Assembly (NCBI GenBank): GCA_016793095.1
Contig: JAEUJQ010000056.1
Span: 1-64,000, forward strand
DNA length: 64,000 nt
Direction: 5' to 3'
Source of the DNA: Myxococcaceae bacterium
GTDB taxonomy: Bacteria > Myxococcota > Myxococcia > Myxococcales > Myxococcaceae
A model generated the notes under the pieces. That model searched no databases. It had not been told where the DNA came from and saw nothing but the letters and a program-made list of their open reading frames with translations. A program made the translations under genes and the position numbers. Within the stretch, counting starts at the first letter, position 1. Each line of letters begins with the position of its first letter. Below are positions 43,369 to 46,874 of this stretch, piece by piece.

Positions 43369-43445
43369 GACGGGGCTTCAACCAGACTTCGCCGGTCGGC
43401 TCAATCAGTGTAAGGGGAGGTAGCTAGGGGTCGTTCTCAAAGGTC

Positions 43446-43455
43446 GGAAAATTCC
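43446..43455. promoter_or_regulatory. Perfect palindrome upstream of the sigma gene
   Basis: GGAAAATTCC is a perfect 10-base palindrome, unusually AT-rich for this DNA, 20 bases upstream of the sigma GTG and about 78 bases from purF. GGAAA resembles ECF -35 boxes, but no matching -10 was found before the start. It may be an operator or part of a self-controlled promoter. Confidence 0.35.
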
Positions 43456-43475
43456 ACCGAGAAAGGTTGCACACG

Positions 43476-43991
43476 GTGCCGCCGAGCGGGGTCCAGCCAG
43501 AAGGACGGGTCACTGACCTGTACCGGAAATATGGGCCGGCGATCTACTCGCGGTGCCGTCGTCTCCTGAAGGACGACGCCCTCGCAGAAGACGCCACGCA
43601 GGAGGTCTTCGTGCGCGTCATGAGACACATCGAGGCAGCACCCGACGACAGCGCGGCGCTCGCGTGGATCTATCGGATCTCCACCAACTTCTGCCTGAAC
43701 CAGATCCGCGATCGAAGCCGTCAGGCCGAGCCCACCGCTCCCGAGGAGCTGCCGGAGGCCGAAGGCGAGGCGCTCGAGCCGCAGATGCTCGACCGCGAGC
43801 TGGCGATGAAGCTGGTCGAGCGGACGCCCGAGAAGCTCCGCGAGACGGTCGTGCTCTACTACATCGACGGGCTCGAGCAGGAGCAGGTCGCCAGGACGCT
43901 GGGCATCTCGCGCCGCACCGTCATCAACCGGCTCCAGGAGTTCCAGGAGCGCAGCCGCAAGTTCCTCGCCCGCGAAGGGGGTGTCGCATGA
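43476..43991 (+). CDS. ECF-type RNA polymerase sigma factor
   Basis: 171 residues. Region 2 (YGPAIYSRCRRLLKDDALAE, EVFVRVMRHIEA, AWIYRISTNFCLNQIRD) and region 4 (LRETVVLYYIDGLEQEQV, LGISRRTVINRLQEFQER) with the helix-turn-helix of sigma-70 family are complete, and region 3 is absent, as in ECF sigma factors. GTG 43476 was chosen because GAAAGG lies 9 bases upstream; TTG 43467 is too close to it. The stop overlaps the ATG of the anti-sigma gene. Release from the anti-sigma factor is expected to activate genes including perhaps this operon. Confidence 0.9.
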   Translation: MPPSGVQPEGRVTDLYRKYGPAIYSRCRRLLKDDALAEDATQEVFVRVMRHIEAAPDDSAALAWIYRISTNFCLNQIRDRSRQAEPTAPEELPEAEGEALEPQMLDRELAMKLVERTPEKLRETVVLYYIDGLEQEQVARTLGISRRTVINRLQEFQERSRKFLAREGGVA

Positions 43992-44758
43992 CCGTCACGA
44001 ACGCCCGCGGGCATCTCTCCAGCGAGACCATCGACCTGCTGCTGCTCTCGGCGCTGTCGGCCGACGAGACGAACCAGGCCAAGTCCCACATCGACGGCTG
44101 CGGCCTCTGCAAGCAGCGCTGGCTCGAGCTCAACGAGGACAGCCAGAAGTTCAAGCAGTACGTCTTCGCGCGCACGCTGCCGCAGGTCGAGGCGCGGGTG
44201 AAGGCGTCGCAGCAGGGCTTCTTCGAGCGCTTCAAGCTGCAGTTCGTGGTGCCGGCGCTGGGCCTCGCGACCGCCGCCGCCCTCGTGCTCACCTTCTCGG
44301 CCGGCCCCGGCACGCAGACCGAAGACGACGTGTACATCGGCGTGAAGGGCCATGAGTCCACCTTCGAGGTGTTCGCCCAGCGAGAGCAGGGCGGCTCGTT
44401 CACGGTGAAGGGTGACACGAAGCTCAAGCCGAAGGACCGGATCCGCTTCGTCGTCTCGCCAGGCCAGGCGAAGTACGTGCTGGTGGCCTCGGTGGACGGC
44501 AAGGGCGCCTTCAGCGTCTACCACCCGTTCGGCTCCTCCGAGTCCGAGCCGATCGCCGGGCAGGTTCCCCGCCGCCTCGAGCTGGGCAGCACCGTCGAGC
44601 TCGACGACACCCTGGGCACCGAGCGACTGCTGGTGGTGCTGTCCGACGCGCCGGTGAAGGCCGAGGCCGTGAAGGCCGCCGTCGCCGCCAACCCTGGCGC
44701 CCCGAAGGTCGAGGGTGCGAAGGTGCTGACCCGGGAGTTCGTGAAGGTCGCTCCGTGA
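43988..44758 (+). CDS. Zinc anti-sigma factor with C-terminal DUF4384-like domain
   Basis: 256 residues. The N-terminus has the ZAS motif H-x3-C-x2-C (His34, Cys38, Cys41 in SHIDGCGLC) that binds ECF sigma factors. One membrane helix follows (about 79-98, FVVPALGLATAAALVLTFSA). The extracytoplasmic part carries a beta domain with KPKDRIRFVVSPGQAKYVLV and VDGKGAFSVYHPFG, matching DUF4384, a domain often found with caspase-like proteins. Its ATG overlaps the sigma stop and its end overlaps the caspase gene (GTGA). Release of sigma by proteolysis or binding of the caspase partner is inferred, not shown. Confidence 0.85.
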   Translation: MTVTNARGHLSSETIDLLLLSALSADETNQAKSHIDGCGLCKQRWLELNEDSQKFKQYVFARTLPQVEARVKASQQGFFERFKLQFVVPALGLATAAALVLTFSAGPGTQTEDDVYIGVKGHESTFEVFAQREQGGSFTVKGDTKLKPKDRIRFVVSPGQAKYVLVASVDGKGAFSVYHPFGSSESEPIAGQVPRRLELGSTVELDDTLGTERLLVVLSDAPVKAEAVKAAVAANPGAPKVEGAKVLTREFVKVAP

Positions 44759-46395
44759 ACACGCTCTGGAAGACAGGGCGGGCCCTGGCGCTCGCCGTCG
44801 CGCTGCTGGCGGCCCCGGCGTTCGCCGAGACGAAGCGCGTCGCCATCATCGTCGGCAACAACGCGGGTGGCCCGTCGATGCCGCCCTTGCGCTTCGCCGA
44901 GTCCGACGCCGGAAAGATGGCGCGGGTGCTCGTCGAGCTCGGTGACGTGGCGGCGGACGACATCCTGCTGCTGCAGGGGCGCAAGGCCGCTGACGTCGAG
45001 CGGGCCATCGCCGATGCGCGCGACCGCATCTCGATGTTCAAGCGCTCGCCCGACGTGCGCACCGTGCTGCTGTTCTTCTTCTCGGGGCACTCCGACGGAG
45101 AGGCCATGGAGCTCGGCAACGAGAAGCTCGCGTACCCACGGCTCAAGGCCCTGCTGGCGGGCTCGGGCGCCGACGTGCGCCTGTCCATCGTCGATGCCTG
45201 CAAGTCCGGCGGCGGCCTCCGGGAGAAGGGCGGCAAGCAGGCCGAGGCCTTCACCATCAAGCTCGCCGACACGCTGCAGCAGACGGGCGAGGCGTTCATC
45301 ACCTCGAGCGCGGCTGACGAGGCGGCGCTGGAGTCGAACGAGGTGATGGGCAGCTACTTCACCCACAACCTCATCTCGGGCCTGCGCGGCGCCGCCGACA
45401 CGTCGGGCGACCGCCTGGTGACGCTCGCCGAGGCCTACAAGTACGCGTACGACCGCACCGTCAGCGCGACGGCTGCGTTGACGGCCGGCGCCCAGCACCC
45501 CTCCTACGACTTCAAGCTGTCCGGCCAGGGCGAGCTGGTGCTGGCGTCGCTGCTCAAGCCGTCGTCGGTGCTGGTGCTGCCCGAAGGCGCCGATCGCTCG
45601 CTCGTCACCGACGTGCTGCGCGATCAGGTCGTCGTCGAAGCGCCCGGCAACGCCGCGAGGGAGTTCGCCCTCGCGCCAGGAGAGTACGCGCTGCGGCTCT
45701 TCAAGCAGGGTCAGGGCTTCGCAGGGCGGGTGAAGCTGGCCGACGGCACGAAGCGCACCATCGCCTGGGCCGAGCTGACGCCCGTGACGTCGTCCGTGAT
45801 GGTGGCGGCGAAGGGCGGCATCGAGGTGTCGCAGCAGATGGACGCGAAGGAAGACACGGCGCCCATCGGCTTGTCGGTCGCGCTGGGGCTCACCGGCCGC
45901 GTCACGGAGTGGGCGCCCAACGACGCCAGCGGCCTCAAGTACCAGCTGCGCGTCGGGCTCGACCCGCTCAGCACCACCTTCGGCAGCTTCAACCTCTTCG
46001 GGCGCCCGCGGCTGGGTCGTGTGCGCGTGGCGGGCGAGCTCACCCTGCACCTGCTGGGAGAGGCCACCATGGAGGCCTTCCGCCGCAACGAGTACGGCCT
46101 GCAGTTGCGCGTCGGCTACCGGTTGGCGTTCGAGTGGTGGCGGCTGCACCTCGGCGTCGGCCTCGAGGGTGGCGGCGGCATGCTGATGACGTCGGACACG
46201 GTGCTCCGCCCGACCGGCGTCCTCGTGGCAGCGCCCCGCGTCACGCTGCGCGCGCGCATCGCGGGTCCGGTGTGGCTGCTGGTCGAGGGTGACTTCCCCA
46301 TCGTCGCGGCGCCGTTCTCGGCTGACGGGCAGAACGTCTACCTGCGTCCCTACGCCTTCGCTGCGGCGTCGGCCGGGTTCCTCATCGCGTTCTGA
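44755..46395 (+). CDS. Secreted caspase-like protease fused to an outer-membrane barrel
   Basis: 546 residues from GTG 44755. A signal peptide (ALALAVALLAAPAFAE) precedes a caspase/peptidase C14 domain: RVAIIVGNNAGG start, catalytic His112 in LFFFSGHSDG, and catalytic Cys149 in LSIVDACKSGG. A linker with a PEGA-like strand region (about 260-340) leads to about 180 C-terminal residues of alternating amphipathic strands ending in phenylalanine (FLIAF), as in outer-membrane barrels. The protease would therefore face the periplasm, tethered to the outer membrane. It is the third gene of a coupled sigma/anti-sigma/protease operon, so cleavage of the anti-sigma or a client is a natural idea, but only inferred. 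Confidence 0.87.
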   Translation: MNTLWKTGRALALAVALLAAPAFAETKRVAIIVGNNAGGPSMPPLRFAESDAGKMARVLVELGDVAADDILLLQGRKAADVERAIADARDRISMFKRSPDVRTVLLFFFSGHSDGEAMELGNEKLAYPRLKALLAGSGADVRLSIVDACKSGGGLREKGGKQAEAFTIKLADTLQQTGEAFITSSAADEAALESNEVMGSYFTHNLISGLRGAADTSGDRLVTLAEAYKYAYDRTVSATAALTAGAQHPSYDFKLSGQGELVLASLLKPSSVLVLPEGADRSLVTDVLRDQVVVEAPGNAAREFALAPGEYALRLFKQGQGFAGRVKLADGTKRTIAWAELTPVTSSVMVAAKGGIEVSQQMDAKEDTAPIGLSVALGLTGRVTEWAPNDASGLKYQLRVGLDPLSTTFGSFNLFGRPRLGRVRVAGELTLHLLGEATMEAFRRNEYGLQLRVGYRLAFEWWRLHLGVGLEGGGGMLMTSDTVLRPTGVLVAAPRVTLRARIAGPVWLLVEGDFPIVAAPFSADGQNVYLRPYAFAAASAGFLIAF

Positions 46396-46403
46396 GGCGT
46401 CGG

Positions 46404-46874
46404 TTGAGCCCGGCGAAGCGCAGAGGTCCCCGCCTGGACGCTCGCGAGGCCCGGCTCCAGGCGGCGCTCACGGCGTTGCGCGAGGCCCTGGGCGACGTGG
46501 GGTCGGCGTGGATGAGCAGACTCCAGGCCCGCCACCGCCCGGGCGTATCGAGCCTGGCCATGCGGCTCGAGCCGGTCTGGGAGCCGCTCACCGTCGAGAC
46601 CGTGACCACGGCCCTCGCGAAGCGCGACATCGTCCCTCGGGCGGCCCGGCCGCACCCGACGTTCGCGATCCGGGCACAGCACGTCCCCTCCGCCGTCAAG
46701 CTCGACCTCGAGCTCGCCGAGACCCTCTCCCCCGACCTGAAGCGACAGCTCGATGAGACGCTGGGCGCGGGCTGGGCGTCTCGCCGTCCTGCTCCAGCTC
46801 GGCTTCGCCGTGCGCCGAAGCGTGAACGGCGCTCGCCTCAGAAGCGGATGCCGAACACGCCGCGCAGGGCCTGA
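46404..46874 (+). CDS. Hypothetical basic protein, overlaps convergent gene end
   Basis: 156 residues from TTG 46404 with GAGG 6 bases upstream, starting 8 bases after the caspase gene. A helical N-terminal part (EARLQAALTALREALGDVGS) and central conserved-looking stretch (RPHPTFAIRAQHVPSAVKLD) are followed by a very basic tail (APARLRRAPKRERRSPQKR). The last 37 bases overlap the end of the convergent TIGR04551-like gene. The tail could bind nucleic acid or the ribosome. The gene may belong to the sigma operon. The TTG start and lack of recognised family keep confidence moderate. Confidence 0.5.
   Translation: MSPAKRRGPRLDAREARLQAALTALREALGDVGSAWMSRLQARHRPGVSSLAMRLEPVWEPLTVETVTTALAKRDIVPRAARPHPTFAIRAQHVPSAVKLDLELAETLSPDLKRQLDETLGAGWASRRPAPARLRRAPKRERRSPQKRMPNTPRRA

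Follow-up and report, generated by a model that had tools for sequence, protein, structure and literature searches.

A sigma factor, anti-sigma factor, and caspase-barrel operon of Myxococcota with a candidate caspase cut site in the anti-sigma linker

Genes and domains of the operon

We analysed a 64,000-nucleotide stretch of DNA (the window), comprising positions 1 to 64,000 of the forward strand of contig JAEUJQ010000056.1 from a Myxococcaceae bacterium (assembly GCA_016793095.1). It contains an operon of three genes, which encode an extracytoplasmic function (ECF) sigma factor, a membrane-bound anti-sigma factor, and a secreted caspase with a predicted C-terminal outer-membrane barrel. The features are listed in Table 1. 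An earlier description made from the letters alone (the sequence-only reading) had reported three overlapping genes; their coordinates and frames were as claimed, and the sigma/anti-sigma and the anti-sigma/caspase pairs each share four bases. The sigma protein is of the ECF type, with only regions 2 and 4 found by Pfam in its 171 residues.

Table 1 Features of the operon in the window. pLDDT, predicted local distance difference test.
Feature	Position	Strand	Evidence
ECF sigma factor gene, GTG start, 171 aa	43476..43991	+	Pfam Sigma70_r2 5e-17, r4_2 6.9e-8
Anti-sigma factor gene, 256 aa: cytoplasmic zinc-binding anti-sigma (ZAS) domain, single membrane helix, linker, periplasmic DUF4384-like domain	43988..44758	+	
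ZAS motif of anti-sigma, H34-IDG-C38-GL-C41 (HIDGCGLC)	44087..44110	+	sequence
Predicted membrane helix of anti-sigma, about residues 85-104	44243..44299	+	hydrophobicity; helix 93-103 in AlphaFold model
K120-G121 of anti-sigma, candidate caspase cut site in linker	44345..44350	+	conservation, model
Periplasmic beta domain of anti-sigma, DUF4384-like, residues 125-253	44360..44746	+	AlphaFold pLDDT >90
Caspase-barrel gene, GTG start, 546 aa	44755..46395	+	PF00656 48 bits; AlphaFold model
Sec signal peptide of caspase, residues 1-24, between AFA and ET	44755..44826	+	sequence
Caspase (C14) domain, residues 27-253	44833..45513	+	Pfam; VIA-align Z 21.8 to Arabidopsis metacaspase 4
Catalytic His112, in FSGHSDG	45088..45090	+	invariant
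D147-A-C149, catalytic Cys149 (in DACKSG) and Asp two before	45193..45201	+	invariant in 57
K158-G159 of caspase, candidate self-processing site	45226..45231	+	invariant; loop pLDDT <50
Ig-like beta domain between caspase and barrel	45565..45786	+	strands in AlphaFold model
Predicted 8-stranded outer-membrane barrel, last residue Phe	45868..46392	+	AlphaFold, Foldseek

The anti-sigma was predicted to be a ZAS factor with putative binding of zinc and of the sigma factor: it carries the HxxxCxxC motif, its gene adjoins that of the sigma factor, and its N-terminus is helical in the AlphaFold model. One strong hydrophobic helix was found, as expected for a single-pass protein, and the earlier assignment of a ZAS anti-sigma was confirmed. 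The motif was found in most of the related operons, but not in those of the long-caspase type described below. The periplasmic domain had been termed DUF4384-like. Its score for DUF4384 (PF14326) was 17.4 bits, below the Pfam gathering cut-off of 27, and the strict Pfam assignment was consequently dropped; the looser label is nevertheless apt, because a paralogous anti-sigma of the same genome reached 30.4 bits, above the cut-off. A structure search with the whole model gave no convincing known fold for this domain, yielding only weak immunoglobulin (Ig)-like matches with a best E of 1.2e-3.

The caspase starts with a signal peptide, and a hydrophobic N-terminus is common to all of its relatives. 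The PF00656 (Peptidase_C14) score of 48 bits exceeded the curated cut-off of 21.4. Legumain and metacaspases were the Foldseek matches of the caspase part, and in the VIA-align comparison Arabidopsis metacaspase 4 was the closest solved fold (Z 21.8, root-mean-square deviation 2.7, 208 residues), whereas a sequence search of the whole caspase-barrel protein against PDB gave nothing significant. The catalytic His/Cys dyad was invariant among 57 aligned relatives and across the 93 caspases of an initial survey, and was present in every caspase scored. Dead paralogues, which a regular-expression search had suggested, were ruled out by profile alignment showing the dyad in all. Taken together, these findings bear out the secreted caspase with His112 and Cys149 of the sequence-only reading.

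The Asp residue two positions before the catalytic Cys was kept in 181 of the 185 operon caspases. In MALT1, Asp462 stands two residues before the Cys. This acidic residue, on the catalytic-Cys loop, lines the S1 pocket (PMC4357240), and C14B enzymes cut after Arg or Lys (PMC4357240, PMC6426788). The position of D147 fits an S1 pocket for basic residues and predicts a preference for basic P1 residues; by sequence, the enzyme is a caspase of the metacaspase/orthocaspase type (C14B, basic P1). The caspases carry a Lys-Gly pair of their own nine positions beyond the Cys (K158-G159 in the window); in the AlphaFold model it opens the loop with the lowest confidence in the caspase domain. This pair is a likely self-processing site; several type II metacaspases mature via a cut at a conserved basic residue, which lies in a different loop (PMC4357240).

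Two deviating groups of caspases were also observed. A subtype in the same operon setting (L059 on contig C29 of the genome of the window, L228, L233, and L239) has A-x-C in place of D-x-C and CHSGxGKS in place of the Lys-Gly loop; its substrate preference may differ, though the partner anti-sigma keeps KG. Two other caspases, L055 (same genome as the window, C69:67616) and the second caspase of L102, are not linked to a sigma gene and are of another type (SGHGG, DACYSG). Both still have the loop Lys-Gly, and the motif therefore extends beyond the caspases linked to sigma genes.

The AlphaFold model of the caspase-barrel protein was built from a 57-row alignment and had a mean pLDDT of 87 and a predicted template modelling score (pTM) of 0.62. 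The caspase domain was modelled with confidence and is followed by the Ig-like domain. Family conservation of the caspase extends to about residue 345, and eight strands were modelled over mature residues 348-521, approximately the last 175 residues. The strands are antiparallel and close into a barrel, and the chain ends in an aromatic residue, as in small barrels of the OmpA/OmpX/NspA kind. Indeed, the Foldseek matches of the C-terminal part were OmpA, NspA (TMt 0.74), Ail, OmpX, OmpW, and PagL. The barrel ending in Phe that had been read from the sequence, and whose absence from a structure model would have counted against the sequence-only reading, was thus recovered in the model, which supports a caspase fused to an outer-membrane barrel with predicted membrane insertion. 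The C-terminal part differs among the family: besides the short barrel of the window, there are long caspases with LA_2272 surface repeats above the NCBIfam cut-off, and types with weak tetratricopeptide repeat (TPR) matches. In the long caspases (700-830 aa; L062, L072, L078, L082, and others), the LA_2272-family repeats are C-terminal and the anti-sigmas are without HxxxCxxC. Sensor modules appear to vary on a constant core of caspase and Ig-like domain, of which the model covers the protein of the window only.

Conservation of the operon and of a Lys-Gly pair in the linker

Relatives of the caspase were found in 54 of the 60 nearest genomes, and the anti-sigma profile matched 159 of 195 Myxococcota genomes. 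The three-gene order was scored with profiles of the three proteins on the loci around these relatives. A caspase was directly downstream of 185 of 209 sampled anti-sigmas (the sample including other classes), a rate that is biased because many loci had been retrieved through their caspase match. Among 75 complete operons, the sigma/anti-sigma overlap was four bases in 64 and the anti-sigma/caspase overlap four bases in 55; both counts lean upward, as the starts were chosen by script and, at the sigma/anti-sigma junction, the start closest to a 4-base overlap was taken. The genome of the window has seven C14 matches above the cut-off and about six sigma/anti-sigma/caspase operons, on contigs C82, C40, C69 (one), C29, C46, and C8. 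The order, whose conservation in relatives the sequence-only reading had made a test of its proposal, was kept in dozens of genomes. Because the same gene order recurs across the phylum, a chance neighbourhood was ruled out, and the recurrence of both order and architecture confirmed that the operon is real.

Some loci depart from this layout. At L067, L103 (1471-5804), and L113, the order or orientation varies, and a caspase with a TPR-like tail lies beside, not directly downstream of, the sigma/anti-sigma pair. At L064 (G012:C1, about 10885700), the genes for sigma factor and caspase are intact, and the anti-sigma frame between them covers about 73 profile positions before it breaks off, by a frameshift or in a degraded gene.

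When 74 anti-sigmas with identities to that of the window down to 16% were aligned, K120 and G121 were the only invariant columns. The pair is placed between the membrane helix and the beta domain, just outside the inner membrane. In the AlphaFold model of the anti-sigma, linker residues 104-124 have no secondary structure, and the pLDDT of residues 105-115 is below 50. In the strict column of 185 caspase-linked anti-sigmas, the pair was KG in 167, RG in 10, MG in four, KS in two, and another in two. The last two had appeared as TG and LG, which were alignment artefacts; realignment resolved them as KS (L236) and RG (L242). In 202 of 207 caspase-linked pairs, the site had a basic residue with Gly or Ser after it, against approximately 20% with shuffled letters. 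Because this count tolerated a shift of up to four residues, we give more weight to the strict-column count. The distance from the site to the membrane helix was 6-29 residues (median 13), and the sole other strong preference in the linker was R at -2 (59%).

A Lys/Arg-Gly motif is thus common to the anti-sigma linker and the caspase loop. One deep clade has mostly Arg-Gly in both. The linker/loop pairs in the tree set were K/K in 75 cases, R/R in 22, K/R in five, and R/K in three; on the tree, changes in loop and linker were in the same direction or showed no difference, and opposite changes were very rare. These sequence patterns are suggestive of a tendency of the Lys/Arg identity to match within an operon. 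Some of the caspase loop residues had been set by eye before this tree test. Furthermore, at L136 (G045:C1:3717680-3718417, in a single-contig genome), the sigma factor and anti-sigma are kept, and the 4 kb around them contain no caspase. Alignment with L081, its nearest relative, shows that the L136 anti-sigma has lost the linker segment with YVGAKG, and the rest aligns throughout.

The pair could instead be a structural element of the periplasmic domain, unrelated to a caspase that is co-transcribed for another reason. Its position immediately ahead of the first beta strand is fixed, and KG is retained in 19 of the 24 anti-sigmas that have no caspase directly downstream, both of which are consistent with such a role. 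However, the linker around it has no secondary structure and is modelled with low confidence, the replacing residue is basic in most exceptions, and the fold seems not to need the motif, since the L136 protein aligns with that of L081 everywhere else. We regard a purely structural role as very improbable.

Regarding the flanks of the operon, the region 43369-43500 around the sigma start (AGAAAGGTTGCACACGGTG) is near-identical in six same-genus operons and is a possible location of the ribosome site and of promoter elements. The strong conservation just upstream of the start in these operons backs the chosen sigma start. No clear -35/-10 pair separable from coding or ribosome-site constraint was found upstream of 43476, though the 5' region is conserved. 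Directly 3' of the caspase gene, a 156-aa open frame (46404-46874, + strand) has no Pfam match.

Proposed release of the sigma factor by the caspase

We propose, with moderate confidence, that the caspase is a site-1 protease that cuts the anti-sigma between K120 and G121 and thereby frees the sigma factor, which would make the operon a proteolytically controlled, envelope-sensing ECF system. The sequence-only reading had already put the sigma factor under the control of the protease; the candidate cut site now gives this idea specific support, and the proposal rests on sequences and models. The site-1 role is favoured because K120-G121 is invariant and lies in an unstructured linker, the caspase loop shares the motif, and the catalytic dyad is kept, as is nearly always the S1-type Asp. 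It is also favoured by the tendency of Lys/Arg to match, the loss of both caspase and motif at L136, the conserved gene order, and the presence of M50 homologues in the genome. A single-pass membrane anti-sigma together with M50 homologues is what regulated intramembrane proteolysis calls for, and K120-G121 is the candidate site for its periplasmic site-1 cut.

In the proposed sequence of events, a signal would cause the caspase domain to mature by its own cut between K158 and G159. The mature caspase would cut the anti-sigma between K120 and G121, so that about 15 residues would be left as a stub on the periplasmic side of the inner membrane, and a site-2 protease of the M50/RseP type would then cut within the membrane and free the sigma factor, which may drive its own operon too. 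The signal, for which the sequence-only reading had suggested envelope damage or a ligand, might be a ligand bound at the variable barrel or surface module. Alternatively, if the barrel fails to be assembled into the outer membrane, the caspase might move freely in the periplasm and so get to the inner membrane; this option would ease the distance problem stated below.

Several observations weigh against a site-1 role. With its anchor in the outer membrane, the enzyme has to act on a bond that is near the inner membrane. The four caspases of the A-x-C subtype are without the S1 Asp and the loop KG, and four anti-sigmas have Met in place of the basic residue (MG). The Lys/Arg matching on the tree comprised at most four independent supported pairs and was not significant. 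Finally, there are the 19 anti-sigmas that keep KG without a caspase immediately downstream. Among these, L124 and L121 have a caspase 1.5-5 kb away, and unlinked caspases are present in the same genome for L115 (L068) and L118 (L074); it is possible that a partner caspase acts from elsewhere at such loci.

The conservation data would fit any contact with the active site, including one in which the anti-sigma binds the caspase via K120-G121 without being cut, keeping the protease inactive or sensing by binding alone. Some caspase homologues are fused to DUF4384 (PMC6426788), and caspase binding may therefore be all that the domain does. Such docking is made less probable by the full dyad, which all operon caspases keep, and by the Gly or Ser on the far side of the bond, as at a cut site; moreover, the geometry of two membranes would make a standing complex less likely. 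We therefore consider uncut docking improbable.

It is also conceivable, though in our estimate unlikely, that the caspase is an effector: the sigma/anti-sigma pair would sense stress alone and switch on the caspase-barrel, which would cut envelope or prey proteins or aid developmental lysis. The caspase gene comes last in the operon, and autoregulation of the sigma factor would bring it into the regulon; caspases without linked sigma genes also exist. In the passages on Myxococcus xanthus, the 2012 report of sigma/metacaspase operons tentatively suggests a link to autolysis (PMC3501461). An effector role, however, leaves unexplained why an invariant basic-Gly pair in an unstructured anti-sigma linker mirrors the caspase loop, and why the motif is lost in the caspase-less L136.

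Extending the site-1 proposal to the phylum is more tentative, and we put the chances of the following at slightly under even. In such a family, outer-membrane-anchored caspases would be dedicated site-1 proteases that cut at Lys-Gly (or Arg-Gly) and activate themselves at the same motif, and each paralogous sigma factor would receive an outer-membrane signal of its own through the C-terminal module of its caspase (8-strand barrel, surface-repeat domain, or TPR regions), by which failed barrel assembly or a surface ligand would be coupled directly to transcription. The function of bacterial caspases is largely open, and myxobacterial ones are mostly discussed as possible death proteases. If the proposal is true, most myxobacterial caspases gain a concrete alternative role, namely transcriptional control from the outer membrane, and a transmembrane signalling route would exist in which the outer-membrane sensor itself bears the sigma-releasing protease. 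The proposal names the single bond expected to be cut.

Comparison with known systems

The sequence-only reading had regarded the layout as non-standard, which does not hold for the pairing of sigma factor and caspase. As stated in the passages on these operons, sigma-70/metacaspase operons were reported in 2012 in M. xanthus DK1622, Anaeromyxobacter, Haliangium, and Sorangium, and four of the five M. xanthus metacaspases sit with a sigma factor (Asplund-Samuelsson et al., PMC3501461). The M. xanthus operons are from the same phylum and have the same partners, sigma factor and metacaspase, as the operon of the window, which very probably belongs to this set. The same passages make no mention of an anti-sigma, a barrel, a cut site, or a signalling mechanism. 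Our literature search, outside whose scope was the main ECF re-classification (10.1093/nar/gkaa1229), found no published account of the proposed caspase/anti-sigma mechanism. Accordingly, what is new here is the mechanism proposal and the candidate cut site, the sigma/caspase layout being already known.

Arabidopsis metacaspase 4 and other C14B enzymes share the caspase fold; unlike the caspase of the window, metacaspase 4 is eukaryotic, has no barrel fusion, and has its self-processing site in a different loop. ECF54 sigma factors have CHAT or subtilase neighbours, and proteolytic control has been proposed for them (PMC8999054). They resemble the present system in having caspase-related domains near an ECF sigma gene, but are described as regulated without an anti-sigma, whereas a ZAS anti-sigma is present here.

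The Craspase system (Cas7-11/Csx29, Csx30, and CASP-sigma) has an ECF sigma factor with a bound inhibitor, which is cleaved by a caspase-like protease (PMC10028731). Release of an ECF sigma factor by an enzyme of this kind thus has a precedent, which makes the site-1 role plausible. The Craspase protease, however, is a cytoplasmic, RNA-activated TPR-CHAT protease acting with a CRISPR effector, without membrane, barrel, or ZAS anti-sigma; the caspase of the window gave no TPR-CHAT match, and its operon comprises sigma, anti-sigma, and C14 caspase genes, the last of these encoding a signal peptide and a barrel.

The proposed system resembles the sigma E system of E. coli (RseA/DegS/RseP) in its steps. 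As in E. coli, a single-pass anti-sigma would hold an ECF sigma factor here, and its release would take two cuts, one in the periplasm close to the membrane and then one by an M50 protease; a short periplasmic stub is the kind of substrate that the site-2 protease needs (PMC8103513). Outer-membrane proteins would likewise be the thing sensed. The two differ in the site-1 protease, which in E. coli is an HtrA-type serine protease of the inner membrane and here would be a caspase-barrel protein, and also in the periplasmic domain of the anti-sigma, which here is DUF4384-like.

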